Below, one piece after another: positions 34,022 through 53,296 of a stretch of DNA of 64,000 nucleotides. The stretch spans positions 41,440,987-41,504,986 of the forward strand of contig NC_012878.2 of NCBI RefSeq assembly GCF_000003195.3. Reading direction: 5' to 3'. How positions within the stretch are numbered: position 1 is the stretch's first letter; each line of letters begins with the position of its first letter. The position numbers and the translations under genes are program-made. The notes under the pieces are model-generated. The model was not told the origin of the DNA, searched no databases, and saw only the letters and a program-made list of their open reading frames with translations. Source of the stretch: Sorghum bicolor. Taxonomy: Eukaryota > Streptophyta > Magnoliopsida > Poales > Poaceae.

Positions 34022-36159
34022 AACTCCCCCAAGCTTACCTCTTGCTCGTCCCTGAGCAAGGATAGATTAGAAGTTGCTGCAGTACTTTTAAAAATTGACG
34101 GTACACATGCTTTTAAATAAGATCTCATCTCTGAGTTAGAGTAAACTGCCAAGACTTAAAACTTATTCATTTTACCTTTCACCATGGGACTTGTAACCGT
34201 CACTTCTGTCTTGAGTAGTTAAAAGATAGAACGGTCTAGCCAAGTGCCATGTCTCTTATTCTTGATCAGCTATAGCTCTGGAGTTTTTGCAGATTTTCAA
34301 ATAAAACTCAGAGATTCCTTGTATGACACTCTCAGATCTCTCATTTATGGTATTTCTGGATCCTTACCAAGGCAGTGATGGTATATGCCTTCTCCCAAGA
34401 TATGTGGTATTTGTGGTATAAGGAATAGTGACATTGCCTTCTCTCTCATCCTATTCTAATAAGGCTTAAATATCTGGAGCCCATAAGTGGGAGATAAAAT
34501 ATACATACTTACAAGACATTTATTGCATAGTCAAACCATGGATCCAAAGAAACAAATCAATAAGTCAAATCAAGATGTGCATGTGTGGCGAATGAATGGT
34601 GTATGATGGTGATGGTGATAACAATGGTGAAAGCCTAATTCTACTTTTGCTCTTTGAGGGGATACATACCTTTCTTGCTTTTTGAAACTTTGTGAGGAGA
34701 ATGAGATGCTCTTCTTTTTTTCTTTTTCTTTTCTCTCAGGTGGGTATCTTGTACCCCTAATTCTACTGTTGGACACTTGTCCATTTTTACCTCTCGTCTC
34801 ATTTTTTTTCTTTTCTTTCGAGGTTCTGGGCACTTGCCCCTTTTTATTTCCTCGTATCTTTTTTCTCTCTCTTCTTTTTTTAGAGCACTCATCTCTTGAG
34901 ATAATATAGCAAGTGGTTGTAACAAGATAACTTGTGTATTTATTTCACAGGGAAAAATAGAAATATTTTGGCTATTCTCTCACGGATTAGGAGTAGAATA
35001 TTTTTGGGTGATTCTGGAGATGGAAATGGGTGGATATATGTGGATGGTACTTCCGGAGTAGAAGTAGCATGTGTGAGTGAACGCACAAGTGAATCTTGAT
35101 TTAACCACATGACAAGCTTGACCACACTCAATGCTCATAAGCAGTAAAAAGTAAATGTGTGGCTCAAAATCTAGCAAGCATGTATATATGGCTGTGGTAG
35201 GAATTTAAACTCTCATCATATAGGAACTCATCATGTGTTATTTTAAATATTTCCAAAGATAAAATTCTCCAGAATTCTAGCATCTCTAGGAACAGAAAAA
35301 CAGCAGCTCAACCTTCCCATATCGTATCCGTTAACAACTTTAGACTTTAGATCAAGTTTTCATCTCACAAGTTTAGGTTTAGAGCAAGCTTTAAATTATA
35401 ACAGTTATGTCTAAACTTGAGAGAGAACTTAAATTTGAAAATTAGGCAGAGCAACTATTCATCATATCCATGCTAGAGTTTTATTTAGATACAGCTTAGC
35501 ATAGCCACTTTATTTATTTATTAAACACACTAAGCAAAAGATATATATATTTATAAGCATAAAATGTTTATTTGGTTTTTTCATAGTTATGTATATTTAA
35601 TATAGTAAAAGTATAAAGATAGATAGAAATACTTATCGGAATAAATGGGGGTGCTCTCCCGCAAGCTGAATTTTGACGTAATTTCTCTTGATGTATCTAG
35701 CAGGTGGCAGAGGTGTATTTGAAAGTGAGCAGCATTCTAACAGCGATTAGAATGTCCTCCGTCTGCTACTCTTCTTGATTCTTATATTCTGTGGAGCTCA
35801 AATAGACAACAAAGCTTGTGGAACTAATTAAGTATTAGCATAAATATCTAGCCTTTATTATGTTGAGTCCTTCGTAAATGTTACTCCCTATATATTTTCG
35901 TTTTTATAAAGCAGAAAAGAAATATTTATTTTATTTTTATGCCACCACAGTGGATGTACTTATGGGTTTCATGCCACTCGTATACTCACATGGGGCTTAC
36001 TGTTTTAACATTTTTATTTTCTTTTTAGGATAGTATGATTATAACTAATTAAGTAAACTATTTTAAAAATAATTGAAAGGGAAAGGATAACTACCAAGTT
36101 TACCTCTTGGCAAGGCGTTCGGTGTTTTTAAGTCCTCCGAACGGGACTCTCTGTTTTCT
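34022..36159 (-). other. A7 3' noncoding region
   Basis: Full reverse copy of the family A tail with the PPT at its right end in element sense (34022-34036). The complete hairpin row is at 34742-34756, 34771-34782 and 34828-34839. No gene visible. Confidence 0.75.
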
Positions 36160-37223
36160 TCAATTGTCCCGGGATTCGTTGGGTGGCGGAGTCGGTACTT
36201 CCGGCAGCGCCTCCTCTTCATGTATAGTTATCTTCTCTCTCCACACCTGACTCGGTGCTATGGTCTCCTCAGGATAGTTCTATTTAAACTGTATGTCTTC
36301 TGACCTTACAACTTCTCCTTCATAGTCTGCCCATCCGTCCCTGATGATTTCCCTCCTCTGGTTGCGGTTGCGTCGCTTTCTGACCTACTTAGATTCTTCA
36401 ACGATATAGTTAGGGTCAGTAAAATAGCGGCATACCTTCTGTGAGGGGAAGTGCATCTGGACTTCTCCAGTTCCAATGTAGATGATTGCTTTAACGGTGC
36501 TGAGGAACGGTCTTCCAAAGATGATGGGTGGATCATATTCGTCTTCTCCTATGTCAATAACCTGAAAGTCTGTGTAGACAAAATGATCATCTATTTTGAC
36601 TGGGACATCAGTTACTATTCCTTTAACTTCTCGAAACGTCTGATCTGCCATCTGGAGCTAAATGTATGTTGGTTTTAGGGGCATGGTTCCGAACAAGAGC
36701 CGATAGGTGACTGCGGCCATTATGTTGACGCCCGATCTGGTGTCACAAGTTGTCTTGTAGAAGTTATATCCATTTATGGAGCAATAGATGCTTGGCATTC
36801 CTGGGTCATCCTTCTTGGTCAGAAACAGTGACTTAAGTTGATGATCTTGACCTCCTTGAACTGCAGTGACCATCTTAGTTGACTCGGTCCACACTTGCTT
36901 GTTCCTATTCCTCCTGTTGGTCCTTTTCCTTGATTCATGTCTGGATTGATCTGGGATTCGTGTAGTCTTGTTCTTGAAGGAAAACGTCTCCTTTCTCCCT
37001 TTGATGTTGAAACTGATCTTGGCAGCACTAGCATAGATGACAGCTCCCGAGGTGTTTAAGAATGGCCTCCCTAAGATGATGGGTGCCCTCTCATCATTAC
37101 CAGTCTCTATCACCACGAAGTCTACTAGGGCATATAAGGTACCAACTCGGACACAAAGGTTCTTCAATATTCCCTTTGGAAAACTTAACGCCTGATCTGC
37201 AAACTGCAAACACATGGTTGTTT
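36160..37223 (-). pseudogene. A7 tandem protease-like domains
   Basis: On minus, two retropepsin-like domains follow gag. The first (about 37290-36985, starting at the end of the gag frame) has IILGRPFLNTSG but Asp-Phe-Gly in place of Asp-Thr/Ser-Gly in sister copies, so it is probably inactive. The second (about 36760-36440) has CDTRSGVNIM, with Arg where A6 has Gly, then a conserved GRPFLSTVKAI. A basic linker and an acidic tail end at TGA (36160-36162). Two TAG codons (36385-36387, 36280-36282) stand at positions that are CAG in other copies. No RT follows. Confidence 0.8.
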
Positions 37224-38642
37224 CTAATAAAGGATATGTAAAGAATTTTTCATAGAGTACCCTGGGTATAATGTTGACGCTGAGCCAAAGTCGCAGAGTG
37301 CTTCTAGGACGTCCACCATGCCGATGGAGATCGGGATGACTGGGCGTCCTGGATTGCCTCTCTTGACCGACAGAAGGTCAGTAGTAACTTCAGTGACGGG
37401 GTTACTCCAATTATTACCTGCATCAAACATGTCTACAAGATTTGCAGATTCTAATCCTTCAGGTTGTGATGGTATACCGGGGTTAGTATCAGGAACAGCA
37501 GCAGCTATTTGATTTAACTGAGATTCAATCATTTTATTAAAGCTAATTTGATTCTTGATGGCAGTAGAGAAATTATCCATTCTATTATTTATATTTTCTA
37601 GCATTTTAGCATTAGATGCCAATTTCTTAGAAAGGTTATCCATTAGCTTTCCTTGATTAGACACTAACTCTCTCAGAGGTGGAAAATTATTATTATTGTT
37701 GTAAGGATTGTTACCTTGATAATTAACTGAGTAGTTAGGCCTCTGTTGATTCCAACCTTGATTTTGTTGAGGACGGTTGTAGTAGTAGTTGTTGTTGTTG
37801 ATGATGTAGTTCACATCCTCAAGCATCTCAGGGCAGTGATTGCCTAAGTGTCCAGTATCTCCACACTCCTCACAAGTCATGTGAGAGTCGTAGATGTGCA
37901 TAACTTCTTTCTTGTCTCGAGCTCTATCATCGAGTTTCTTCATGAGCAGGTCTAGCTTTGCAGACAGCATGTCTACCTCCTTGAGCTGATGCATACCTCC
38001 ACCTTTCTTGCGTGTCTGGGTCCTCTCTTTATTCCAGCTTTGGTTGGACGCCATCTTCTCCACAAGAGCTGTGGCTTGTGATATGGTAAGTGATAAGAAT
38101 GCTCCTCCAGCTGCAGCATCCATGGTCTCTCGGGCACTGTTGCCGAGCCCATGATAAAATGTCTGCATCAGTAGCCAACTCTCCATTCCATGATGGGGAC
38201 ATTCTAGGATGTAGTCTTGGAAGCTCTCCCATACTTCTGGAATAGATTCATCATGTTGTTGTTGAAAACTTGTAATCTTCCCATGGAGAGCATTGGTCTT
38301 GCCCATGGGAAAGAACTTAGCCAGGAAGTTTGTTGAGCAGAGTGCCCACGTAGTATTCTTCTCCTTTATAGCGTAAAACCACTGCTTCACTATTCCTAAC
38401 AGTGAGAATGGGAAGAGGCGAAGTAGTATAGCATCTCTAGGGACTCCTGATATGGTGAATGTGTTGCAAATCTCTAGGAAGTGTTGGAGATTAGCACTAG
38501 CATCTTCATGTGTCTTCCCACAAAACTGGTTGGATTGCACCATGTTGATAAGTCCAGGCTTGAGCTCAAAGTTGCCTTCAATCTTTGCAGAAGGTCCAGT
38601 GCGGATGTTGTCCGTAGTGGGAGCTGAGAACTCACGGATCAA
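37224..38642 (-). CDS. A7 gag, longest open copy in family A
   Basis: A 472-residue open frame on minus. Residues 1-20 match the family gag after its first few dozen residues, so the true N-terminus is missing and the first codon (TTG) is not a real start. Residues about 28-170 are the retrotransposon gag capsid domain (RLFPFSLLGIVKQWFY at 75-90). Residues 257-270 form a complete CCHC zinc knuckle (CEECGDTGHLGNHC). An Asn-rich linker and an amphipathic stretch follow. Capsid proteins of this type package the element RNA in virus-like particles. The frame runs into the first protease domain and shifts near 37290. The 5' side is fused at about 38642 to the middle of a variant LTR, removing leader and primer site. 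Confidence 0.8.
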   Translation of the reverse strand: MIREFSAPTTDNIRTGPSAKIEGNFELKPGLINMVQSNQFCGKTHEDASANLQHFLEICNTFTISGVPRDAILLRLFPFSLLGIVKQWFYAIKEKNTTWALCSTNFLAKFFPMGKTNALHGKITSFQQQHDESIPEVWESFQDYILECPHHGMESWLLMQTFYHGLGNSARETMDAAAGGAFLSLTISQATALVEKMASNQSWNKERTQTRKKGGGMHQLKEVDMLSAKLDLLMKKLDDRARDKKEVMHIYDSHMTCEECGDTGHLGNHCPEMLEDVNYIINNNNYYYNRPQQNQGWNQQRPNYSVNYQGNNPYNNNNNFPPLRELVSNQGKLMDNLSKKLASNAKMLENINNRMDNFSTAIKNQISFNKMIESQLNQIAAAVPDTNPGIPSQPEGLESANLVDMFDAGNNWSNPVTEVTTDLLSVKRGNPGRPVIPISIGMVDVLEALCDFGSASTLYPGYSMKNSLHILY

Positions 38643-39223
38643 TTTTCTAGATTACAACTAGAACTAACTAGAACTAGAACTAGAGGAACTAGAACTAGAT
38701 GAACTAGAGGGATCCTCTCTACTTGGATGAAGAATTGAAACCCTAGCTTTGATTCTGTAGAAGAGGTATGTTCTCTAGGGGCCAGGAGGTTTGCTTATAT
38801 AGTCCCCTCAAGTGAATCTGGGCCGTCGGATCAAACCGACATTAATGGCATGGTTTTCCTTGATCCTTTAGGTCGGTGGAGCACGATCCGCGAAGTTGAA
38901 GCTGATTGGTTCCTGTAGCTGGGCGGGCGCCCAAGGGGGGAGGGCGGGCGCCCTGCCCCCGGCCCCGATCGGCCTCCCGTTCGTTCCCGTGGCTTCTGGA
39001 GTCTTCTAGATGATAGAAAATTGGCGCACACGTTACTATCTCTATGTAAACCCGACGTGTGGGCCTTTCCTCCATATTTCCTGATAACCCCCTGCAGAAA
39101 TAGACAAACACCAAAACTCATGGAATTCTGTCAGATAAAACCCTAAGTCTGGGTATTGGTTGCATATAAGTCCTTTTTCATGATTAGTTGACGGTTAAAA
39201 GTGAGCATTAAGGACCGTCAACA
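38643..39223 (-). repeat. A7 5' LTR, variant form, truncated
   Basis: On minus it starts TGTTGACGG at 39223 and follows the variant LTR of A2, including the TAGTTC-type microsatellite, then breaks into gag at about 38642. TATA box at 38794-38802; GC-rich palindrome pair at about 38921-38962. It inserted into the LTR of the Tekay-like element on its right. Confidence 0.85.
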
Positions 39224-39393: not shown

Positions 39394-41265
39394 TTAATGA
39401 TTTTCAAAGAAAGTTTTATAAACTTCTTTTAAATAGTCCTCTGTTTCCCAAGTGGCGTCTTCCTCCCTGTGGTTACTCCACAACACCTTGTCGAACTTAA
39501 CCACACGATTATGAGTCACCCGCTCCTTGTGGTCAACAACCGCTACAGGTTTGTCCTCATACACCAAGTCGGATTTCAACTTGATATCTCGAACTTCCAC
39601 TCGTTCTTTCGGAACACGAAGGCATTTCTTCAACTGTGATACGTGAAAGACAGGAATGATAGCTCGAAGCTCAACCGGTAGTTGAACCTTATAAGCTATG
39701 TTCCCTTTTCTCTCGAGAATCCGATAAGGCCCCAGATAACGAGGTGCAAGCTTTCGCTTGACTCCGAACCTTTGCACGCCTTTCATCGGAGACACCTTGA
39801 GATACACATGGTCACCGACTGCAAACTCAATCGGCTTCCTTCTCTTATCAGCATAACTTTTCTGATGAGCTTGAGCAGCTTCCAGATGTTGCTAGATGGT
39901 ACGAACTTGCTGCTCTTCGTTCACGAAATCGATGCCATAATACCTTCATTCCCCGGGCTCCACCCAATTCAACGGGGTTCGACACTTTCGACCATACAGA
40001 GCTTCAAACGGAGCCATCTTGATGCTCTCTTGGTAATTGTTGTTATAAGAGAACTAAGCTAATGGTAACCACTTTACCCAAGAACCTTTTGAAGAGAGAG
40101 CACATGCCCTCAACATGTCCTCTAGGATTTGGTTAACACGTTCAGTTTGGCCGGCCGTTTGAGGATGATACGCAGAGCTACGAACCAAGTGAGTGCCAAT
40201 TTGCTCATGAAGACACTCCCAAAAACGGGCAGTGAACTATAGTCCACGATCTGATATGATAGTCCGAGGCACACCATACTGACGGACAATGTGCTCGAAG
40301 TACAACTCTGCGAACTGGAATAAAACGAGCAACCTTGGTCAAACGATCTACAATCACCCAGATAGAGTCATAACCCTTAACAGAAGATGGGAGTCCAGAG
40401 ATAAAATCCATACTAACTTCTTCCCATTTCCAACTAGGAATTGACAAGGGTTGAAGCAAGCCTGCTTTCATGTGAACTGCCTTCACACGACAACAGTTAT
40501 AACAACGAGCAATAAAAGCAGCAATCTCCTTTTTCATCTTTGTCCACCAAAATAGAGGATTCAGATCCTGGTACATCTTGCTACTACTAGGATGGATAGA
40601 CAACTTGGATGAATGAGCTTCAGATAGGATCTGATTTCTGAGCTCACGGTCTTTTGGGACCACAAGCCGATCTTTGAACCACAGAATTCCGTTCTCATTG
40701 ACCCGGAAATGCTTGGTTTCTTCTTCTTTTATTTTCCTCTTTATATGGTGGATGCCTACATCCATTTGCTGCAATTCGATGACTCGATTGCGAAGAGAAC
40801 TCTCCAGAGCAATCTGGTGGAGCACCAGCGGGTGCATAAGACGTGACAACGATGGATCTTCCATTTGAACTGAATGACAATGCGCTTTCTGACTCAAGGC
40901 ATCCGCAACCACGTTTGCCTTGCTCGGATGGTAGTGCACTTGAAGATTATAATCTTTAATCAACTCAAGCCACCTTCGCTGTTGCATGTTCAATTCAGGT
41001 TGAGTGAAGATGTACTTGAGACTCTTATGATCGGTGTAGATATTGCACAGATTACACAACGAATAGTGCCTCCAGATCTTCAAAGCATGAACAACCGCAG
41101 CCAATTCTAAGTCATGAGTAGGGTAATTGACCTCATGTTTTTGAAGTTGGCATGAGGCATAAGTGATAACACGACCTTCTTGCATCAACACACAGCCCAG
41201 ACTGATACTAGACGCGTCACAAAAGACATCGAAAGGCTTCTCGAAATCGGGTTGAGCTAGGACAG
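39394..41265 (-). pseudogene. pol remnant: RNase H, integrase, chromodomain-like tail
   Basis: On minus, RNase H is seen first ([38 protein letters not shown], about 41240-40880). The integrase zinc region follows (HPSSSKMYQ and CYNCCRVK, about 40600-40480), then the catalytic core (MDFISGLP; the second Asp near a broken stretch at 40240; a core Glu in GQTERVN near 40145). VYLKVSPMKG, HVSQLKKCL and a chromodomain-like end (DATWETEDYL) close the frame at 39394. A frameshift lies near 40300. Stops at 40237-40239 and 39892-39894 (TAG at CAG positions) and 39946-39948 (TGA at a CGA position) fit C-to-T change; the one near 40056 does not. The target duplication of element C is at its right edge. 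Confidence 0.85.
41261..41265. other. target site duplication of element C, left copy
   Basis: GACAG directly before the LTR start TGTCGACG. The same five bases follow the other LTR at 53292-53296, a perfect 5 bp duplication as made by retroviral-type integrases. Confidence 0.95.
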
Positions 41266-41725
41266 TGTCGACGAAAGCTAGTCGGCAGTCTACCTTGGGG
41301 TATACCCACGGTAGTAGTTTATCGGTAAACGGTGCGCAAACTACGAACTCGATGGTGACGCAAGACACGGACAAGCTTTTTATCCAGGTTCGGCCGCCGA
41401 GTTGGCGTAATACCTACGTCCTGCGTCTGGTTGTATTGATTTGTGCTGAGAGAATATGATGTCCTAGGGGGGTCCCTTGCCCCTCCTTATATAGTTTGGA
41501 GGGCAGGGTTACAGATCTGGAAACTAATCCTAGTCGGTTACAATTGCCATAGTTAATTTGATATCAATTCCTATTCTAACCGACTAGAATCCTGCTTGAT
41601 CTCCACGTCTTGTTTCCTTGCGCGAAACTCCGAGCTGTCGGATCAAGCCTTGAACTCGTCTCGTAGTGAGCCAAGCTTCCTGGCTGAAGTCTAGCCGTAA
41701 GGGTATAGGGGTTTATACCCCCACA
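41266..41725 (-). repeat. element C 3' LTR
   Basis: 460 bp; on minus it runs from TGTGGGGGTATAAACC to TTTCGTCGACA. It differs from the other LTR at two sites: GACGCA here against GATGCA, and TTCGGCC against TTTGGCC. TATA box on minus at 41486-41494. Confidence 0.95.
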
Positions 41726-41745
41726 GCTAGTCCCCGAGCACCATG
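41726..41745 (-). other. polypurine tract of element C
   Basis: On minus, GGTGCTCGGGGACTAGC lies directly before the LTR start TGTGGGGG. The core CTCGGGGACT is repeated many times upstream (42018 to 42590), see the tandem repeat entry. Confidence 0.7.
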
Positions 41746-42293
41746 TATTGTGATGCAACACGCCGTCTTGAGCTTCTTCGATCAGCGAGGCTTGGCGTCT
41801 TCAATAAGTGGGGAGATCGCCCAAGCAGTTGCAACAGTTCCTTGACCAACTCGAAAGACAGTTGATCAACATTGACATCGAAGAGGCAGGTTGTTCGAAG
41901 AATGCATGGTGCTCTTAAAAAATTTCTTTCCTGGTGAAGTGTGCCCACTTTACCTTTTTGAAAGGTAAAACCATCAAAAAAGCAAACAAATTCACCGCTA
42001 GGTGAAGTGTGCCCACTTAGTCCCCGAGCCTGGTAGTAGGTGACGTAGGCACGTGGTGCCAGGGTCAAAAGAAAATTCCCCAAAGTAGTTTTGAGACTGA
42101 GATGCATCGCTAGATGCATCGTACCGATGTAGTCCCCGAGCTTGCTGGAAGGCGAATTATGAGCCTTGTAGCAAGGTCTAAAGTGAATTTACCAGTCCCC
42201 GAGCATGTCATGCTCGCCTGCAATTGAAAAGACCAATCGACCAGTCCCCAAGCACTTAGTGTGCTTCTTGGAATTATATGTTGCTATACTGTA
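41746..42293 (-). other. 3' untranslated region with scattered PPT-like modules
   Basis: Noncoding in both strands. On plus, AGTCCCCGAGC-type cores occur near 42019, 42133, 42195 and 42243. Several are followed by a short inverted repeat, such as GAGCATGTCATGCTC near 42201 and AAGCACTTAGTGTGCTT near 42250. The spacing is irregular; the regular 70 bp array starts next to them. A duplicated motif around GGTGAAGTGTGCCCACTT lies near 41933 and 42002. Confidence 0.6.
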
Positions 42294-42635
42294 CGACCAG
42301 TCCCCGAGCGTGGAGTGCTCAGTGGTCGATGCATGCTTTAAAGCTTTGAGCTGATAGACTGAGCGACCAGTCCCCGAGCGTCGAGTGCTCGGTGGTCGGT
42401 GCAGTCCTTGAAGTTCCGAGCTGATAGACTGGGCGACCAGTCCCCGAGCGTCGAGTGCTCGGTGGTCGGTGCAGTCCTTGAAGTTCCGAGCTGATAGACT
42501 GGGCGACCAGTCCCCGAGCGTCGAGTGCTCGGTGGTCGGTGCAGTCCCCGGAGTTCCGAGCTGTTAGACTGGGCGACCAGTCCTCGAGCGTCGAGTGCTC
42601 GGTGGTCGGTGCAGTCCCCGGATTGTTGACTCACT
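42294..42635 (-). repeat. tandem array of about five 70 bp units
   Basis: CGACCAGTCC recurs at 42294, 42364, 42434, 42504 and 42574, an exact 70 bp period. Each unit holds a PPT-like core (AGTCCCCGAG on plus) followed by a stem GAGC...GCTC. Units 2 and 3 look identical; the first is the most diverged and the last is cut short. Tat-lineage elements are known to carry tandem repeats in the 3' untranslated region that can seed satellites. Confidence 0.95.
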
Positions 42636-42907
42636 GGCGTATGTGTCTTCTTACTTTTGAAAAGATCTTTCCAGTTAAAGTTGACGTGACAAGGTCTCCT
42701 GACGATATGTCAGACGGATGCATGAAAAGTTGCACCTGGCAGCTGTACAACCGCTCTTTGCATGGTTTGAGAAAAGGAAACCATTAATTGGTACGAAAAC
42801 TCCGCCGCATTAATTGTCTATAATCATTGTAAACCGAAACGCCGCGTCCGCCGCACGGCCTGCCCACTTCCCGAGAATACAGGAAGTGGGAGAGGTGGAG
42901 TCGCGGG

Positions 42908-42915
42908 TTTATAAG
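42908..42915 (+). promoter_or_regulatory. TATA box of the antisense gene
   Basis: TTTATAAG lies 113 bp before the ATG at 43028, in a GC-rich setting suited to a short 5' leader. A TTGACGTGAC motif (42681-42690), resembling W-box/ACGT elements, lies farther upstream. Both are inferred from sequence only. Confidence 0.6.
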
Positions 42916-43027
42916 GGCCTAATAGGTCCGCCTGTACCGCTTCGCCTGCCATTGCCTTCAAACCTTCCGCTCTCATCTTCTCCAATCTCCTGCATCTTCC
43001 TAACTCCAGCCCACATTCGCACCTCTA

Positions 43028-46000
43028 ATGGCGAAGAGCGACTCCAGGAAGAGGGCCGAACTGATGGCCAAGGAATGGAAGAAGTCTCCCAGCACCACAA
43101 AATCTCTTGGTGACCTCGTCGATATGGGGCTTCTGCACGGCGCAGAGCTCGGTGGCTGGAGGGCACCGGAGGGGGAGAGCTACCCCGACCCTCGCGCCGG
43201 TGAGATCGTCGTTTTTGAAGATTTTGTTAAGAGAGGCTTTGGTGTTCCTGTTCATCCTTTTCTTCAAGGTCTTCTTTTGTACTATGAGATCGGGATTTGC
43301 AATCTGCACCCGAACTCAATTCTCCTTATTTCCACCTTCATCCACCTGTGCGAGGCCTATGTTGGCATAGAGCCACACTTCGATCTTTTCCGGTATCTTT
43401 TCTGCTTGAGGAAGAAGGGAGCAGTTGGAGGCTCCAAGGTTGCAGGTGGAGTATACCTCAACCTTCGTGATGGGATGAAGAATCGCTACCTGCACTGCCC
43501 ATGGAACACTTCCTTGACCGAATGGTACAGGAAGTGGTTCTACATCAGGGAGGAACCGGGTAGCTCCACGTTCTGCGACGTGGGATACGTTCCCGAGAAG
43601 AGGGCGAGCCGGACCGACCGCCCGGAGTTCGACGGTCCAGTGGCGGATCTCATGAAGCTGATCGACTGGTCGCGCCTAGACGGGCTTGGCGTGGTCGGCA
43701 ACTTCATTTGCCGCCGGGTGATGCCCTGCCAGAAGAGGGTGCACTCGGCGTACGAGTATGCCGGAAGCGCAGACCCGACCAGGATGCGGTCGGAGATCTT
43801 GGAGAAAGCGGAGGTACAACAGCTGTTGAACGAGCTGTTTAACTTCGCGGATGGGGGCTTCATCCGTGGCAGTGATCGGGTGCAAGCCTTCAAGTTAGGA
43901 CGACCAGCACCAAAGGTATGTAGCAGATTCTGTTTGATCATTCGTATATCGTCTGCAGTTGACTCATCTCTGTTGCTTTTGCAGGTCGGTGATGTCGACC
44001 GGTGCGCAGTGTATGTATCACTGGCACCGGGGATGGAAAATCCTGTGGGAGAGGTCCCGCCAGAGGAGGACGCTGCTCGGTGTACTCATTACACCAGCAG
44101 TGAGGAAGACCGAGCCCGCCCCGTCCCGACCTCCGAGGAGAGGGTAGCGGGGAAAAGGCCATTTTCGGCAGATCCCTTGCCGACACCGGAGCTGCCGGCA
44201 GATCTACCGGCGGAGAGCAGCCAAGCACCGAAGCGTCGTCGGCTCGTGCGGATCGTCGACGAGGACGACGACGAGGAGGCTGCGTCGTCGTTGGTCCGAC
44301 GGCCTCGGAGCCGCCCAGACACTGCGCCGGTCGCCACTGATCGAGTGGCCAGCGGCGCCGCTGCCCCGCAAGTTGTCGAGACGGGGGCACAGGTGCCGAC
44401 CGGCCGGGCGAGGAGGAGGTTCACCGCGACCCACCGTCGGTCAGACCTGTAAGTGTTCGACTTACGTATTTTGGACTCCTCTTTTTTTTTAACTTTTGTT
44501 CCTGTAGTGCGGCATCGGATGTCGACCCTGGTCAAACTGCCAGCCAGGGAACGGGCGAGCCTGCCCGCGGTTCTGGGGATGCGGCCCCCCAGACCACAGA
44601 GCAGCCAACAACTGCAGTCGCGCCTGGGAGCACCGAGGGGCTCCCGAGCGCGGCGCCGACTACAACAAGCAGCCCGGCCAGGGCTGGAGAGGCTCCCCCA
44701 ACTGACTCCTCGGAGAAGGGAAGATCTCCGACCGCTCCTCCTGCCGGGGGGAGTGAAGTCCCCCGCCGCCCCGAGCAGGAGCCTCTTCGGCTGCGGGCTC
44801 CCCAGGTCTGGTCCAAGGGCCAGTAATGCCTGGGACCACCACCGGGGGTGACGCAGCACAGGAGGAGGAAACCCGGGCGGCCTCCGATGACGAGGTGGAA
44901 GAGATCGAGGGTCGTCCCCGTGATGGCCGCCAACACGTGTATGTGTGGCGCCAACGCGGGGATCACTTTATCGGGCATGAGGAGCTCGCCGAGACCGAAG
45001 AGGCCGCCAGGGTGGAGCGCGCGGCCAAGCGCCTCGTCGACGAAGTCAAGGTAAGCGGCTTTTTGTGCTGCTGCGCATTCTTTTGCCTTGTCTTGCATGG
45101 TCGTTATATGCTTGCTTTGTAGGACGTAATGAAAACGGCGAAGTACCGGAAACGGTGCTTTGACCAGATAGAAGGCGTCATGGCCGAGAACAAGGCCCTT
45201 GCCGCGGAGGTAGACCGGTTGCGGGCGGAGGTCGGGGAGAAGGTGGTCGAGATGAGTGCCGAAAAGGAGCGTCGTCTCGACCTCGCTCGTCGTTTGGCCG
45301 ACCAGTACCGGCTGCAAGAAGGTTAGTCACACACTCCGAGGAGCTTCGCGTACTTGTATAGTTTGCTTTGCTGACCAGTTTAGGATTCACGCAGACTTGG
45401 AGGAGGAGGTGGCGAGCCTCCGACAAGAGAAGGAGCAGCTCAGCCAACAGCTCGCCGGTGCGCAGGAGTCCGGGCGGCGAGCAGAAGAGGAATTGGGTCG
45501 AAAAGACCGGGAGTTAGCTGGTAATGGGTGTCGCCTTGTTGGTTGCTGCCTGCCCCTTTGTTTGTTTAGTATGCCGAAAATAACGCTTCGTTTCGTTTGC
45601 AGTGCTCAAGGTGAACACCAAAAAGCACCTGGATGACCTGATCAAGGACCGGGACTCCTGGAAGGTCAACTGTTGCAGGATCTGGAAAGGAGTGTCCCCG
45701 GTCCTAGACCTGATCAGTCCCGAGCTCCCGGAGAGCCAGCCCCGCGCGCCGCAGTTGACCCCGGTCGAGAAGGCGCAACGGGCGTGGGACTGGCTCCAGC
45801 AGTTTGTGAAGGACGCCGGGGAGTTTGCCGGCGCGCACGTCCTCAGCATGGTGCGCGCCCACTACCCCCTGGTCGACTTGAGCAGGCTGGAGAAGGGGTA
45901 CCCGAAGGAAGTCGGCCCACAGGAAGCGGACGAACTTCGGGGTAATCTGCTGGACTTGTCGTCGACAGTGATCGGCGACATCAATCTGTGCGGAACGGCC

Positions 46001-46177
46001 ACTCCTCCAGACCAGCCGAGCTCAGATAGGTCGGCCAGGGAGTTGTCGGGCGCGTCCGTTGCGGGAGATGGGCGGTCGACGCCTGCGGTCTCGACCAGCC
46101 AGGCGCCGGTGGCCCCGACCCCTTCGTCCGGGCAGCAGGGCCAGGCGGGTGATCAGCCCGAGCAGCTAGGCCAATAA
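43028..46177 (+). CDS. spliced antisense gene inside element C (gypsy type transposon family, coiled coil)
   Basis: Six exons can be read on plus: 43028-43915, 43985-44448, 44508-45050, 45123-45321, 45395-45520, 45603-46177. All five introns are GT-AG, 59-82 bp, and every junction keeps the frame. Exon 1 encodes the 'putative gypsy type transposon' domain (Pfam Transposase_28 family as I recall it): EIVVFEDFVKRGFGVPVHPF, NPNSILLISTFIHLCEAYVG, then LVVGNF-like parts. Exons 2-3 are Pro/Ser/Thr/acid-rich; exons 4-5 form a coiled coil (VASLRQEKEQLSQQL). Exon 6 ends in a conserved helical part and a Gln/Pro/Ser tail. One frameshift lies at about 44801-44826 in exon 3. The gene is convergent with pol (278 bp apart). 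Function unknown; such antisense ORFs are known in grass Tat elements. Confidence 0.8.
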
Positions 46178-46248
46178 AGTAGTCTGTAGGAATAGACTAG
46201 TGTTTGCCCGTCAGGGTATTTATTGTAAACTTTGTATGTAAAGTTTGT

Positions 46249-46254
46249 AATAAA
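46249..46254 (+). terminator. poly(A) signal of the antisense gene
   Basis: AATAAA 72 bp after the stop codon, in an AT-rich stretch with repeated GTAAAGTTTGT-like motifs. Another AATAAA overlaps the stop at 46173-46178. The 278 bp between this gene and pol must hold the 3' ends of both transcripts. Confidence 0.55.
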
Positions 46255-46454
46255 GTTTGCTTTTTGTCATGACTGTTGTTTTGAGCGCTGTAAGAATATC
46301 TGAGTGACGTGTCACCGCATTTGTCTTGGTTGTCGCTAAGAGCATCCGTTGCAGGAGTTTTGCCAAGTGCTGTGTGTGACAAGGTATGGGCCAAAAATAG
46401 AGAATTTCATTATCAAGAATTATCAGATACTTACAAAAGAAAGTCATTAAAACT

Positions 46455-49400
46455 TTATGGATAGAAACGTCGCAGTTTGTCGATGTGCCAAGAGTTAGGC
46501 ACTCGTGTTCCGTCTGGGTATGCCAATCTGTAGGACGTAGGTCGTGTGACCTCGGTCACCACGAAGGGTCCTTCCCAGGGGGTGGATAGCTTGTGCATTC
46601 CCTCCTGGCTTGTTTTCCATCGAAGCACCAGATCGCCGACCACGAAGGAACGGTCCTTGACATTCCTGTTGTAGTATCGCCTGACTGCTGCGAGATATTT
46701 TGCTGTTCGGAGACACGAAACTAAACGCTTTTCCTCCATGCAATTGATTTCGAGTTCTCTGGCGTTGTCGGCGGTCGCCTGGTCGAAGTGCTCGATTCTA
46801 GGAGATCCGAAGTGTATGTCAGACGGCAAGACCGCCTCTGCACCGTACACCATGAAGTAGGGAGACACCCCTGTGTTTCGACTGGTCTGAGTTCGGAGGC
46901 CCCAGACCACTGCCGGCAATTCTTTCATCCATCGACCGGGTGCTCTGTCGTTTTCGGTGTACAACCTTTTCTTTAGGGCGTCAACGATCATTCCATTAGC
47001 ACGTTCAACTTGACCGTTGGCACGTGGATGTGCCACTGACACATATTTTATGACTATGCCTCTGTCATCGCAGAAATCCCAAAAAGTGGTGCCAGTAAAC
47101 TGAGTGCCCAGGTCGGTGATTATGCTGTTCGGGATGCCGAACCTGTGTATGATTTGATTGAGGAACTCCACAGCCTTCTCGGAGGTTGCCTTGACCAGGG
47201 GCATGTATTCAATCCACTTGGAGAACTTGTCGATTAACACGAAGACAAACTTGAAATTGCCCGTGGCTGGTTTAAATGGTCCGATCATGTCAAGCCCCCA
47301 GCAAGCAAAGGGCCAAGACGACGGGATGGTTTGAATTTCATGGGCAGGTACGTGGGTCCTCTTAGCGAAAAACTGACATCCTTCGCAATGCCGAACCAGT
47401 TTTTCTGCGTCGCCGACCGCGGTTGGCCAATAAAAACCTACTCGGAAAGCCTTTCCGACCAGCGTTCTAGATGCGGCGTGGTTGCCGCAGGATCCGGCGT
47501 GTATGTCCTCCAAGAGCTTGATACCATCATCTTGGGGTATGCACTTGAGCAGTACCTCGGAGCTTGCGTTTTTCCGCATGAGTTTTCCGTCGACCAGGAT
47601 GTAGTTCTTTGATCGTCGGATGAGGCGCTCGTTCTCTGTTTTGTCCTGAAAGCCTGTCCCGTCTGATATGTATTTGATGAACGGGGTACGCCAGTCACGC
47701 CCACCGGTTGTCGGAGTGGCGTCATCTATGAGCATTGCCTCGGTGGGTTGCTTGTCGACCAGGGGGGAGCTTACGCTCGGCTCATGGATGTCTTGGACGA
47801 AAATACCCCGCGGGATTTGGGCCCGAGATGAGCCTAACTTTGACAACGCATCTGCTGCTTGGTTCTTATCCCGGACCACGTGGATGTACTCTATGCCATA
47901 GAAGTTAGTTTCCCATTTGCGAATTTCTTTGCAGTAGAGATCCATCTTCTCGTGGGTTGCGTCCCACTCCTTGTTGAGCTGGTTGATGACCAAAGCGGAG
48001 TCGCCGTAGACATAGAGGCGCTTGACCCCCAGTTCAACGGCTAGTCGTATGCCATGTAAGCATGCTTCGTATTCGGCGACATTGTTTGACGCCGGAAAAA
48101 GGATCCGAAGGACGTAACGGAGTTTGTCCTTGTTAGGTGATACGAACAATATCCCAGCGCCTGCACCGTTGATGTTCAAGGACCCATCAAAGAACATAGA
48201 CCAGTGGTATGAGACATCTGGAACAGAAGGCTCGTTGAGATCCGTCCATTCGGCAATGAAATCGACCAGGGCTTGAGACTTAACAGTGGTGCGACTCTGG
48301 AACTCTAGGGAAAATGGACATAATTCCATTGCCCATTTCACGATTCTGCCATTGGCGTCCTTATTGCGCAGGATGTCCCCGAGAGGAAAGCTGGTTGTCA
48401 CCAGGACTCGATGGCCGTCGAAGTAGTGCTTTAGCTTTCTTGACGTTATCAGGATGGCGTATATAAGCTTCTGTATTTGTGGGTACCTGGCCTTGGATTC
48501 GTTTAAAACTTCGCTTATGAAGTAAACGGGTCTCTGGACTTTGAAGGCGTGACCTGGTTCATCTCGCTCGACCACTATTGCCGTGGAAACAACCCTGTCG
48601 GTTGCAGCAATGTAAAGGAGTAGGTCTTCATTGGGCTGAGGCGCTGTGAGGACAGGCGGTGAGGTGAGGAAGGTCTTAAGCTGAGTGAACGCAGCGTCGG
48701 CTTCCTCTGTCCAAGAGAATTTTTCTGACGCTTTCAGTAGTTTGAAGAAAGGGAGGCCTTTTTCTCCCAGCCTTGAGATGAAACGACTGAGGGCGGCCAT
48801 GCATCCGGTTAGCTTCTGAATATCCTTGACGTTCTTCGGTGGTCGCATGTCGAGTACGGCTTTGACTTTTGAAGGGTTTGGTCGTATGCCGTCGCGACTG
48901 ACGACGTTGCCGAGCAGTAGACCGGAAGGAACGCCGAAAATGCATTTCTTGGGGTTGAGCTTCCACTTGTACCTATTGAGTGCCTTGAAGGTTCGGTCTA
49001 AGTTGTCGATTAGGGTGCTCGCGCCCCTTGTTTTTACGACCACGTCGTCCACATAGGCCTCGACGAGGTCATCGCGAATCTCGTCGTGGAGGCATTGCTG
49101 GATGGCCCTTTGATAAGTGGCCCCGGCGTTTTTAAGTCCGAAAGACATGGTAGTGTAACAGTATGCGCTGAAGGGTGTGATGAAGGATGTTTTGATCTGA
49201 TCTTCTTCCTTTAACGAGATCTGGTGATAACCAGAGTAGCAATCTAGAAAGGAGAGGAGTTCGCATCCGGCCGTTGAGTCGACCACCTCGTCGATGCGAG
49301 GAAGACCAAAAGGATCTTTAGGACAGTGTTTGTTGAGATCGGTGTAATCAACGCACATTCTCCATTCATTATTCTTTTTGCGTACAAGAACCGGATTGGC

Positions 49401-49640
49401 GAGCCAATCGGGATGATACACTTCTTTTATGAATCCGGCTGCTAGAAGCCGTGTTATTTCTGTCCTAATAGCCTCCTTTTTGTCACGAGCGAACCGTCGC
49501 AGTCTTTGCTTGATTGGTCTTGCGGTCTTCGAGACATTTAAGGAGTGCTCGATCAGGTTTCGTGGGACACCGGGCATGTCTGCGGGTTTCCATGCGAAAA
49601 CGCTCACGTTATCCCTTAGAAACCTGACGAGCGCGTCTTC
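46455..49640 (-). CDS. pol: element C pol: RT, RNase H, second RNase H, integrase
   Basis: An open frame of 1050 residues counted from the first candidate codon at 49607, open back to the TAG at 49641. RT: residues about 37-215 with [12 protein letters not shown] and the catalytic YVDD at 185-188 (49044-49055). A degenerate gypsy RNase H follows (about 320-450). A second, archaeal-type RNase H at about 470-592 keeps D474, E514, D536 and D586; this pair is a hallmark of the Tat lineage. Integrase: zinc ligands H703, H710, C741, C744; catalytic D773, D832, E868 with the 35-residue spacing. The C-terminus WEGPFVV...LRRFYP is typical of the group. No ATG opens the frame, so it probably needs UAG readthrough from gag-pro, or the TAG is a mutation. 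Looks functional. Confidence 0.93.
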
Positions 49641-52600
49641 CTATTTTGGATCCAGGTTAGCCCCGATGAGGGCTGTCTTCTCGGGGTTGCCTTCGACCAG
49701 CTGCACTTCTTTGTACTCCTTGGATTTCGAATTCTTTCTGGCTGTCTCCTGCTCAGGTAATCGGAGCTGGTCGGGAGGCAGCTGTGCGGCTTGGTTTGCT
49801 GTTTCCGCCATGCGGATCGAGAGGTCAATTGCCTCAGTGATCTTGAAGCTTTCTTCTTCGCAGGTGTACGCAGTGTAGACGTTGCCTCTGATGGTTAGGA
49901 CACCCTTCTCCGTGGGCATCTTAAGGACTAGGTATGAGTAGTGCGGGACTGCCATGAACTTTGTCAGCGATGGGCGGCCCAGTATGGCGTGGTAGGTCCC
50001 GTCGAAATCCGCGACTACGAAGTTGATGAACTCCGTCCGGAAGTGATCGGGTGTGCCGAATTGGACAGGCAATGTTATCTGTCCGAGGGGCACCGAACTT
50101 TGACCTGGCAAAACCCCCCAGAATTGGGCGTCGTAAGGTTTTAGTTGTGCCGGTGATATCTTGAGGGCGCGCAGGCTGTTGCGGAAGAGGATGTCGATGG
50201 AGCTTCCCCCGTCCACGAGCACGCGCTCGAATCTGATGCTATTGATGCAGGGATCAAGAATCAGTGGGAAACGACCCGGCTCTGGGATGGCGGCCCACTG
50301 GTCCTTCCTGCTGAACGAGATCTCCCTGTGGGACCACGCGGGAAATTTTGGATCTGCGATCAGCCCGTCCGTGCTGTCTATGTTGAGGCAGGCTCTCTTT
50401 AATAGCTTTCTTTCTCGCTTGGACTCAGTGGAGACCTTGCCCCCGAAAATGGAGTGGACCACGTCGGTGGGGCTGACGTATTGGTGTCGGGGGTCCCTGT
50501 CTTGGTCCTCATCCTCATCTTCGTGGTCGTGCCCGTCGCGTTTGTTATTTTTCTTGGCGGAGTCCTCTTGGGCGGCCCGCCGTGTATAGATACTTTTGAG
50601 GACGCGACACTCTTCCATGGTATGGTTAGACTTTGGGTGTAGCTGGCACGGTCCCTTCAACGTTTTGTTGTAGTCGTCTTGGTAGTCCCGTCGTCCGTTG
50701 GGACGTTTGACCGTATTTACTTCGTGGTCGTATTCACGAGGGCGCTTTCCTCTGAAGTCGTCGCGGCTGTCGCGCCGCCGATCCCAACCCTCTCGGTGAT
50801 CGCGGTTGTCAGAGCGGCGGTGATTTCTGTTGTCGTAGCGACCACGACCGTCATCTCGCCGAGAAGGCTGGTCGGGGCCTCTCGCGTCGTCTCGGATTAG
50901 TTTTTCTGCGTCATCAGCATCGGCGTAGTTTTTAGCCGTGGCGAGGAGCTCTGCTACCGTTGATGGGCGCTTACGCAACAGCTTGTTCCTCAGCGCTTCA
51001 TGGAAACGCAAGCCCTTGATAAAGGCTGATATGGCCTCGTCATGAGAAATCTTCGAGATTTTGAGGCGCATATCCGAGAATCGTCGGATGTAATCGCGCA
51101 GAGGTTCATTCTTCCTGTCTCTTATCCTTTCAAGGTCATACTTGTTTCCGGGCTGCTCGCATGTGGCGATGAAGTTGTCGATGAAAGCCTGTCGTAGCTC
51201 TTCCCAAGAGTCGAAGGAGTCCTCGGGCAAGCCGAGAAGCCACTGATGACCAGCCTGGTCGAGGACTACGGGGAAGTAGTTAGCCATGACGTGCTCATCT
51301 CCTGCCGCTGATCGAACGGCAATTTCATAGAGAGTGATCCAGTTCTCTGGATTTTCCTTGCCGTCGTATTTTTTAAGTTTTTCGAGCTTGAAATTGCGGG
51401 GCCACACGACCTGGAGGAGGTGCGAGGAGAACTGCCTTAGGCCCGGAGGACCGTGGGTCGCATCGTACTCGATGCGGCGCAGGTTTTCGTGGACTGCTCT
51501 CTCTGCGGCGCGCCTGTTGATGCGGTCCCGGGCATCTTTGGGAGGGATGTTGTGGCGGAGATCCCTGTGTTGATCTTCTTCTTCTTGGCCGCGTACGCGG
51601 TTCTGCTGGCGGCGGCCATCGGCGTCCCGACCACCAGCGTCGCGCCGAGAGTCCCCTCGACGGTTGTCGGGGGAGCGGCTGCGGTGACGCCTGCTGGGTG
51701 AGGCCCGGCTACGATTAGTCTGGTCGGAGGCGGCTTCCGTATAAGAGACTTCCTGGACTCTCTTGAGCAGAGTGGCTGTCTGTCCCATTGCGGCGATCAG
51801 GTGTGCTCGGATGCTGGTCCGGACTCCCTGGCATTCGGGGGTGTCAGGAAGCCGATCCAGGTTGGCCATGGCGACAGCCACGTTGGCGCTTGGCGTTTTG
51901 TAGACCGGCTGGTCCCCGACCATGTCGAAGGCATCGTTGAGGTTACTTGGTGGCATCTGTTGTTGCTCGTCCGCACGCCGTCGGGCGCGATCGGCGTTAC
52001 GCTGTTCGCGGAGTTGCCTCTGGTCATCTGTTTCTCCGTCAACAGCCGGTTCGTCGGCGCTGACATTGAACACGATATCCCCTCGCCGGGGGGGAATATC
52101 GGGAATCGGTCGAAACCCGGAGGGTGTGAAGGAAAATCCAGGTCGTAGCCCTCGTCTTCGGTGTTTATAACCTCGGTGGGGACGGAGCCGGTGCTTGAGT
52201 TGGTGCTGGAAACCTGGCCGTCCCGTAGCTCTCGGATTGTCACCATGTTGACATGGTGACGATTGTTCCTTGTCGGCGACCAGCCCGCTTTGCTGAAAAC
52301 GGATTGGACATGCTGTGAGTAAACAGAGGCCGAGTTGTTCAGGCCGCAAGGATAGTCTTCCTTTTTGAGCTCGACGGATCGTCCTGAGGGGGTTGAGGTT
52401 ATCGTCAGGGACGTTCCTAGCCGTTCGTGTGTGGCGACATGAGTTGGCCGGCGGGATTTCGAAAAATCCGCTCGAGCAGCTTGGTCGGGCCGGCGCAGAA
52501 CTCCATCTATTAGTTGGGAGACTTCGAGTAGCTTGGAGTCAGCGCGATCGAGCGCTTGGAGGAGGTCCGAGCAGTCGATCTCCTTTCCCTTGTAGAGTGG

Positions 52601-52783
52601 GAACGGTGGTCGGGAGCTTGGTGCCGTCATGCGTGTGGTCGGAGACGGCGTGATCTCAGATTGGATCTGGATCTCTTTCGGAACCGTGGTCGCGAAGCCG
52701 CCGCTGCACGTCGTCCACGTGATCTGGCCGACGGTGAACGTGAGGCCTTCGGGCACGGTCGCGGAAGCTGGGATCGTGACCAT
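49641..52783 (-). CDS. gag-pro: element C gag-protease (one frameshift)
   Basis: An ATG at 52783 opens a frame with MVTIPASATVPEGL; an earlier GTG lies in the primer site and is not a start. The frame is lost at a run of seven G (52088-52094) and continues as a 902-residue frame to TAG 49641-49643. Parts in order: N-terminal region, Arg/Asp-rich stretch, capsid domain (about 51420-50900, HQWLLGLPEDSFDSWEELRQ), Arg-rich nucleocapsid part with a C-x2-H-x4-H-x4-C knuckle (CQLHPKSNHTMEEC, about 50650), then protease with VDGGSS at about 50202-50216 and ILGRPSLTKFMA. The G7 change could be a sequencing error, since the rest is open. The TAG at its end lies in frame with pol. Confidence 0.88.
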
Positions 52784-52812
52784 CTTCTTCGCCGGAAAAG
52801 TTGCACGCACAC

Positions 52813-52830
52813 CCCCTACCTGGCGCGCCA
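52813..52830 (-). other. primer binding site of element C
   Basis: On minus the bases read TGGCGCGCCAGGTAGGGG, one base inside the LTR end GTCGACA. Element D has the identical 18 bases at 55192-55209. I do not name the tRNA with confidence. Confidence 0.85.
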
Positions 52831-52831
52831 C

Positions 52832-53291
52832 TGTCGACGAAAGCTAGTCGGCAGTCTACCTTGGGGTATACCCACGGTAGTAGTTTATCGGTAAACGGTG
52901 CGCAAACTACGAACTCGATGGTGATGCAAGACACGGACAAGCTTTTTATCCAGGTTTGGCCGCCGAGTTGGCGTAATACCTACGTCCTGCGTCTGGTTGT
53001 ATTGATTTGTGCTGAGAGAATATGATGTCCTAGGGGGGTCCCTTGCCCCTCCTTATATAGTTTGGAGGGCAGGGTTACAGATCTGGAAACTAATCCTAGT
53101 CGGTTACAATTGCCATAGTTAATTTGATATCAATTCCTATTCTAACCGACTAGAATCCTGCTTGATCTCCACGTCTTGTTTCCTTGCGCGAAACTCCGAG
53201 CTGTCGGATCAAGCCTTGAACTCGTCTCGTAGTGAGCCAAGCTTCCTGGCTGAAGTCTAGCCGTAAGGGTATAGGGGTTTATACCCCCACA
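52832..53291 (-). repeat. element C 5' LTR
   Basis: 460 bp, TGTGGGGG...GTCGACA on minus, flanked by GACAG on the outside and the primer site inside. It differs from the 3' LTR at two sites, both C/T at CpG. Confidence 0.95.
53052..53060 (-). promoter_or_regulatory. TATA box in the element C 5' LTR
   Basis: On minus, CTATATAAG followed by GAGGGGCAAGGG, 231 bp from the 5' edge of the LTR. This is the likely Pol II start of the genomic RNA. Confidence 0.65.
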
Positions 53292-53296
53292 GACAG
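53292..53296. other. target site duplication of element C, right copy
   Basis: GACAG directly after the LTR end; identical to 41261-41265. The interrupted Tekay-like pol continues from here. Confidence 0.95.

Follow-up and report, generated by a model that had tools for sequence, protein, structure and literature searches.

Introduction

Antisense open reading frames (ORFs) are known in Tat LTR retrotransposons (PMC7264820, PMC11963269), as stated for those of grasses in a preliminary description of the locus studied here, and antisense ORFs encoding a Transposase_28 domain (TRP28, PF04195) are a hallmark of the Retand elements (Vicient 2025, PMC11963269). In the latter survey antisense ORFs of at least 600 bp were counted separately, with 104 antisense ORFs reported, TRP28 in 57, and separate ORFs with Smc, polIII or other domains. 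The word "intron" is not present in the main text of that paper, and searches of an open-access collection gave no report of a multi-intron structure of the antisense gene. In the maize element Grande, gene23 (Gomez-Orte 2013, as cited in PMC7264820) is described as an antisense gene located in a long 3' internal region, with transcription from its own promoter and a nuclear protein product. The HBZ gene of HTLV-1 and APH-2 of HTLV-2, as described in PMC10186651, are spliced antisense genes of retro-elements that encode nuclear regulators and have their promoter in the 3' LTR. Plant LTR retrotransposons are described as generally intron-less, with a few sense-strand exceptions (PMC12786077). 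The introns of Ogre and EVADE have the same orientation as the element RNA and are inherited only if some RNAs escape splicing (PMC6317226, PMC12786077).

A 64,000-nucleotide stretch of the Sorghum bicolor genome (the window) contains an LTR retrotransposon with an antisense gene between pol and the 3' LTR (42908-46254, plus strand). Very probably this element, of Retand/Tat type, has here a genuine accessory gene of six exons, equipped with a TATA box and a poly(A) signal of its own, which would be spliced and encode a trans-regulatory protein. The location, the antisense orientation, the domain, the long pol-3'LTR region and the presence of tandem repeats are shared with the Retand elements of PMC11963269, which are reported with separate ORFs, whereas one six-exon gene is found in the sorghum element. 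The likeness to Grande gene23, as described in the source cited above, is one of antisense orientation and of location in the long 3' internal region; the sorghum gene has a conserved TATA box and an NLS-like PKRRR patch. Unlike HBZ as described, the sorghum gene has five introns, whose splicing is suggested by their conservation, an internal TATA box at 42908, about 1.2 kb from the LTR end at 41725, and no Pfam match to bZIP in exons 1, 2, 4 and 6, which were the exons scanned. In contrast to the introns described for Ogre and EVADE, those of the sorghum gene are antisense.

The host element

The element is 12.0 kb long, belongs to the Ty3/gypsy Retand/Tat type and lies on the minus strand of the window. 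Alignment of the LTR pair, with ends read from the sequence, placed the 3' LTR on the left (41266-41725, minus strand) and the 5' LTR on the right (52832-53291, minus strand), both flanked by a 5-bp target duplication GACAG (41261-41265 and 53292-53296). The LTRs are 99.35% identical over 464 aligned bases, so the gene does lie antisense within a young LTR element, as had been proposed. The gypsy order of gag, RT, RNase H and integrase was found together with the LTRs and the target duplication, with a gag region ORF with a Retrotrans_gag match (49641-52538) and a pol ORF with RT, RNase H and integrase matches (46455-49640), both on the minus strand. No Pfam match to a protease was found in the element. 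An in-frame TAG separates the gag and pol ORFs.

The LTR (460 bp), the internal region (about 11.1 kb) and the pol-3'LTR region (about 4.7 kb) are all inside the Retand ranges of 315-1,194 bp, 7,380-12,869 bp and 2,933-6,566 bp, respectively (Vicient 2025, PMC11963269), and according to Pfam the segment from pol to the 3' LTR encodes a Transposase_28 domain in antisense, as in Retand elements. The assignment to the Retand/Tat type is based on domain order, sizes and this antisense domain, the formal criterion being RT phylogeny. Upstream of the predicted antisense promoter there are 70-bp tandem repeats (42267-42616, plus strand), with 3-6 units per locus in 39 loci.

Structure of the antisense gene

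The gene was followed in 36 aligned genomic copies, including that of the window, and in three diverged loci (L050, L051 and L052). All its features are on the plus strand, and the TATA box, the ATG, the five GT-AG introns, the stop codon and the poly(A) signal were all located at the positions given in the preliminary description. The predicted TATA box TTTATAAG (42908-42915) is identical in 36 of 36 copies and is of TTATAA type in the three diverged loci. Exon 1 (43028-43915) starts with the ATG at 43028 and encodes the Transposase_28 domain. It is followed by intron 1 (43916-43984, 69 nt), exon 2 (43985-44448), intron 2 (44449-44507, 59 nt in the window copy and 57-72 nt among copies), exon 3 (44508-45050), intron 3 (45051-45122, 72 nt), exon 4 (45123-45321), intron 4 (45322-45394, 73 nt), exon 5 (45395-45520), intron 5 (45521-45602, 82 nt) and exon 6 (45603-46177), which includes a TAA stop codon conserved in all 36 copies. 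The signal AATAAA (46249-46254) is also present in all of them, and in L051 and L052. The phases of introns 1 to 5 (0, 2, 0, 1 and 1) fit a single reading, as had been claimed, and the introns are T-rich (41% T, versus 17% in exons).

A protein of about 930 residues had been predicted from the window copy. The spliced frame is open for at least 928 codons in 20 of the 36 copies, and the product of open copies has 931 residues. However, the window copy is one of the 16 in which the frame is not open for 928 codons: it is frameshifted within exon 3 and a stop is reached at codon 557. That the proposal came from one copy, itself frameshifted, and that long ORFs arise in GC-rich sequence would both fit splice-like sites chosen by eye and produced by chance, an explanation of almost negligible probability. 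When L029, one of the open copies, was read from ATG to stop with at most five GT-AG introns allowed, the longest reading had 958 codons and five introns, whereas the maximum among 100 dinucleotide shuffles was 688 codons and none of them reached the spliced length. These shuffles, the conservation of the landmarks across copies and loci, and the dN/dS values given below led to the rejection of chance splice sites.

Conservation of introns and exon junctions

All five introns are present in each of the 36 copies. The GT-AG borders of introns 1, 3, 4 and 5 are kept in 36 of 36, and for intron 2 the GT and the AG are each kept in 35 of 36. Introns 1, 2 and 3 occur at the same sites in L050, L051 and L052, intron 4 in L051 and intron 5 in L051 and L052; the stretch of intron 4 is absent from L052, and L050 does not reach it. 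L051 retains all five sites with GT-AG, together with the TATA box and AATAAA, its exons being 69-84% and its introns 44-64% identical. In L052, 69 exon bases are gone together with intron 4 and its surroundings; as evidence this single decayed copy is weak, and it was left out of the argument. Exons 2-3 are disrupted in both L051 and L052.

Several separate unspliced antisense ORFs, one with Transposase_28 and others with coiled coils, would be an improbable alternative to a single spliced gene. Exon 1, intron 1 and exon 2 do form a single open frame of 482 codons, and surveys list antisense ORFs of at least 600 bp individually (PMC11963269). Nevertheless, the five GT-AG sites are kept although the introns diverge, and 14 of 17 distinct indels of non-multiple-of-three length fall in the five introns. 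In addition, homologous segments elsewhere in the genome are bounded by the predicted junctions: among 150 listed of 429 matches, 101 of the 122 segment starts at exon 4 fall on its junction, as do 106 of the 122 ends, and exon 6 starts at its junction in 24 of 27 segments. Separate unspliced ORFs were rejected on the basis of intron-site conservation, these junction-bounded segments and the dN/dS of the spliced frame. Sequence comparison suggests one spliced gene in place of the individual ORFs listed in surveys, and ORF-based counts may have split one gene into pieces. Since intron 1 reads open in frame, it could be retained in some transcripts; in L029 the four-intron reading that retains it is slightly longer (973 versus 958 codons).

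The genomic RNA of the element is the complement of this gene, with CT...AC replacing GT...AG, and would not be spliced there; therefore, reverse transcription would copy the introns intact in every cycle. The presence of all five introns in every copy agrees with their proposed survival through these cycles, as expected if the genomic RNA cannot splice them. A conserved five-intron antisense gene would give an element that replicates through RNA a stable means of retaining introns.

Selection on the protein

Variants common to several copies comprised 53 nonsynonymous and 74 synonymous changes in the spliced frame, versus 86.9 and 40.1 expected, the N/S ratio being 0.33 of expectation, with third codon positions in excess (74 of 127). 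The same ratio was 1.63 and 2.41 in the other plus frames and 0.76, 1.74 and 0.81 in unspliced frames. One minus-strand frame was similarly low (0.37), which shared third positions and its 15 stops explain. Against the diverged loci, dN/dS was 0.184 (L051), 0.201 (L052) and 0.193 (L050), and 1.20-1.90 in wrong frames. Exon by exon, dN/dS was 0.07-0.14 in exon 1 (three loci), 0.28-0.32 in exon 2, 0.19-0.23 in exon 3, 0.29 and 0.19 in exon 4, 0.20 and 0.20 in exon 5, and 0.18 and 0.18 in exon 6. Protein-level selection on the spliced frame is clear from these substitution patterns, and the constraint follows all six exons, which is against separate ORFs. As the constraint is seen with the five introns removed and not in unspliced frames, one multi-exon protein-coding antisense gene is supported. 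Exon and intron rates, compared across copies and loci, were unequal; their equality had been named in the preliminary description as evidence against the gene.

Constraint on singleton variants was weak in exon 3 (1.03) and exon 5 (0.94), and between L051 and L052 the dN/dS of exon 5 was 0.52 (25 codons). The C-terminus of pol is under stronger constraint than the antisense gene (0.11 versus 0.33).

A regulatory antisense RNA, acting as a source of dsRNA/siRNA and a silencing brake with an irrelevant protein, was considered very improbable. The sense genomic RNA overlaps the entire antisense unit, and a dsRNA/silencing-type role of antisense RNA was proposed for Grande (PMC7264820), so that such a role may be an added one; but dN/dS values of 0.18-0.20 and the third-position excess indicate that the protein is selected, and the RNA as sole role was rejected as contradicted by this selection.

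The predicted protein and its origin

The 931-residue product has a Transposase_28 domain, a charged, proline-rich linker encoded by exon 2 with the NLS-like patch near residue 378, a coiled-coil-like stretch in exons 4 and 5, and a conserved C-terminal region. Profile searches of the translated exons confirmed the transposon-type domain in exon 1 (Pfam E 8.7e-23), but gave only weak sub-threshold matches in exon 4, where, as in exon 5, the coiled-coil character was judged by eye, and no Pfam match in exon 6. Structure prediction, also proposed as a means of identification, did not provide one: the exon 1 model had a mean pLDDT of 34.1 with 5 sequences and of 59.8 (pTM 0.58) with 32, without a fold match in the PDB or the viral library at E <= 0.001. 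A PDB sequence search gave no match at E <= 1. Protein searches with the full 931 residues and with the first 310 each returned one protein, P0001, an NCBI gene model without a break across the sites of introns 3, 4 and 5, which is in favour of the spliced reading. The exon 1 alignment search returned 266 proteins; among the 120 listed, one (P0056) came from NCBI/UniRef and the others had jgi, ena or lgn labels only.

The antisense mRNA, once spliced, would be translated into this protein, a probable nuclear product that would act on the element in trans, with transcription of the element or handling of its RNA or cDNA as candidate targets. The Transposase_28 protein of unassigned role becomes a full-length target of 931 residues.

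At slightly less than even odds, a multi-intron antisense gene of single, ancestral origin is common to the whole lineage of Retand and perhaps to all of Tat. If so, the antisense ORFs listed separately as Transposase_28, polIII gamma/tau-like and Smc-like would be exons of one gene, and antisense coding would explain how a gene rich in introns was able to survive repeated reverse transcription from the early flowering plants onward. As to the origin of the sorghum gene, the element could have taken up a host gene in antisense, introns included, and later kept it; this is rather unlikely, and is compatible with a spliced accessory gene. Similarity to TRP28 was not found outside transposable elements by Vicient 2025 (PMC11963269), which is against capture, whereas numerous introns are to be expected in a host gene, and two distantly related Transposase_28 loci (L048 and L049) exist, L049 matching the annotated sorghum protein P0056.

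Structure of the antisense gene

Every landmark that the preliminary description had attributed to a six-exon gene on the plus strand, antisense to its host retroelement, was found in the window sequence: a TATA box (42908-42915), ATG (43028), five GT-AG introns (43916-43984, 44449-44507, 45051-45122, 45322-45394 and 45521-45602), stop codon (46177) and AATAAA (46249). The junction phases of the five introns are 0, 2, 0, 1 and 1. This description of the gene has been retained, but not that of the window copy as intact: a loss of frame within exon 3 brings a stop into its spliced reading at codon 557.

The open copy L029 was used as reference in a chance control, in which the longest ATG-to-stop reading with 0-5 GT-AG introns of 55-120 nt was compared with 100 dinucleotide shuffles. 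With 0, 1, 2, 3, 4 and 5 introns, L029 gave 474, 679, 740, 791, 973 and 958 codons, and the shuffle maxima were 320, 352, 401, 583, 646 and 688 codons. The four-intron optimum (973) exceeds the five-intron one (958), which we read as intron 1 being kept, its 69 nt being open in frame. This intron (43916-43984) has a length multiple of three and contains no stop, and exons 1 and 2 read through it form one unspliced frame of 482 codons. An isoform retaining intron 1 is possible from the sequence; coding constraint on it is disfavoured because its identity to the diverged locus L051 is low (49%).

Conservation of the introns among genomic copies

When exon 1 was used as a DNA query, at least 40 places, window included, were located out of 1,839 first-look candidates. 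The 39 other places were fetched and 35 of them gave one full-length match, resulting in 36 aligned rows with the window. Four loci (L009, L025, L030 and L040) were left out since their match was truncated or split within exon 2, although two of them (L009 and L030) have matched segments that cross all five intron sites. ATG, stop, TATA and AATAAA were identical in 36/36 copies. Both GT and AG were intact in all 36 copies for introns 1, 3, 4 and 5, and each in 35/36 for intron 2. The spliced frame was open over at least 928 codons in 20 of the 36 copies. Relative to L029, 8 distinct indels were present in the exons (2,795 bp), spread over 8 copies, and 6 of these break the frame; the introns (355 bp) contained 17, of which 14 were not multiples of three; intron indels of this last type were carried by 35 copies.

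The intron positions were also apparent in a protein-based search with a segment of 198 residues from P0001. This NCBI gene model, rearranged and 642 residues long, aligns gap-free across the sites of introns 3, 4 and 5. The best 150 of 429 genome matches were classified with the values of the match table. Among the matches listed, 122 were of exon-4 type, with 101 starting at residues 31-34 (intron-3 junction, 32|33) and 106 ending at residues 98-101 (intron-4 junction, 99|100), and 27 were of exon-6 type, with 24 starting at residues 139-142 (intron-5 junction); one belonged to neither class.

Selection on the spliced frame

The spliced frame of the coding antisense gene is under selection. 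Variants were scored at sites where the reference copy has the commonest letter, and expectations were derived from the observed mutation classes. Shared variants (present in at least two copies) comprised 53 nonsynonymous and 74 synonymous changes versus 86.9 and 40.1 expected (ratio 0.33; exons 1-6: 0.17, 0.38, 0.54, 0.48, 0.62 and 0.18). Singletons comprised 166 and 144 versus 210.5 and 99.5 expected (ratio 0.55; exons 1-6: 0.54, 0.44, 1.03, 0.30, 0.94 and 0.41). The contrast between shared variants and singletons gave p 0.027, or 0.014 after removal of methylation-type changes.

In the shared-variant controls, ratios were 1.63 and 2.41 for the other two plus frames, 0.76, 1.74 and 0.81 for the unspliced frames, 0.90 for the upstream region and 1.17, 0.37 and 2.48 for the minus frames; the minus frame at 0.37 has its third positions in common with the antisense gene and contains 15 stops. 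When the introns were scored as coding, ratios were 2.52, 0.53 and 1.01, but the 28 variants behind them are not enough to carry weight. In the C-terminal part of pol (36 copies), 11 nonsynonymous and 43 synonymous shared variants were found versus 37.3 and 16.7 expected (ratio 0.11), the singleton ratio being 0.48. The antisense gene is under constraint, yet a weaker one than pol, since its shared-variant ratio is 0.33 versus 0.11.

Five diverged Transposase_28 loci (L048-L052) were picked from lists of genome matches, and L050, L051 and L052 could be aligned along the antisense gene. The five introns are all present in L051, at matching sites and with GT-AG ends. L052 shares introns 1, 2, 3 and 5 but is missing the segment around intron 4, and L050, which is truncated further on, extends over introns 1-3. 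Between L051 and L029, identity was 82, 72, 69, 76, 72 and 84% in exons 1-6 and 49, 51, 45, 64 and 44% in introns 1-5. Over gap-free and stop-free codons in the L029 frame, dN/dS versus L029 was 0.184 for L051 (910 codons), 0.201 for L052 (893) and 0.193 for L050 (636), with values by exon of 0.07-0.32 for the three loci; wrong frames gave 1.20-1.90. L051 versus L052, themselves both broken in exons 2-3, gave 0.174 overall, with 0.52 in exon 5 on 25 codons.

In L048 and L049 the exon-1 part alone matches, at 21-32% identity, varying with the alignment. L049 (3374-4129, minus strand, on C10) is a distant Transposase_28 locus whose reading matches an annotated sorghum protein (P0056, SORBI_3010G058600), and which could represent a copy of host-like or domesticated type.

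Proposed expression and function

In the genomic RNA of the element the introns are present as their complement, GT...AG being replaced by CT...AC, and they are therefore not spliced out and survive reverse transcription. All five were kept in the 36 aligned copies, a set whose full-length-match requirement could in principle miss intron-less copies. Transcription by RNA polymerase II would start near 42908, and the transcript would end near 46254, leaving about 200 bp to the stop codon of pol. The spliced mRNA would encode a protein of 931 residues, with an NLS-like motif (PKRRR) and a region that appears coiled-coil-like by eye. This product is expected to be a nuclear regulator acting in trans, a role of the kind put forward for proteins of Retand and Grande elements (PMC7264820, PMC11963269). 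Two frame-breaking exon indels were each found in two copies, which would fit help in trans; recurrent mutation is the alternative.

Within both strands of the window, the decamer GTCCCCGAGC is confined to 41730-42510, where it occurs 8 times. Its copies lie in the interval separating the 3' LTR from the antisense promoter (41730-42616), partly inside 70-bp tandem repeats whose unit count ranges from 3 to 6 over 39 loci, and one copy adjoins the LTR, where the polypurine tract is expected. This decamer is a possible target of the antisense-gene protein.

Relation to known antisense genes

Antisense ORFs with Transposase_28 were reported in 97% of Retand clusters, a count based on ORFs of 600 bp or more (PMC11963269), and an earlier survey found this domain in 23% of Retand elements (PMC6317226). 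The word 'intron' was not found in the main text of PMC11963269, and nothing on antisense or splicing in passages of PMC11718148. Among the titles listed in searches of an open-access library, in which subscription papers have little coverage, none reports an antisense gene with several introns in an LTR retrotransposon; an earlier description of such a gene may exist, above all for gene23 of the maize Grande element. Spliced antisense genes as such are already known in HTLV (HBZ/APH-2, PMC10186651).

Host element and surroundings

A Ty3/gypsy element with gag and pol domains lies at 41266-53291 on the minus strand. Its LTR pair shows 99.35% identity over 464 aligned bases and it is flanked by the target duplication GACAG, the exact LTR ends and this duplication being read by eye from the sequence. 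Assuming 1.3e-8 substitutions per site and year, the element would have inserted roughly a quarter of a million years ago. A single in-frame TAG (49641-49643, minus strand) divides gag from the pol ORF in the same frame; it may be a readthrough stop common to the copies or a lesion in the window copy alone.

The element is probably nested in an older one, because another gypsy pol, with RNase H and integrase zinc-binding domains, and an ORF with a tail that is chromodomain-like by eye adjoin it (39394-41413, minus strand). Long direct repeats with spacings of about 4.75 kb and 5.2 kb were observed at 30032-39220, a region that also includes a gag-like ORF (37224-38651, minus strand) with a zinc-knuckle-like motif recognized by eye.
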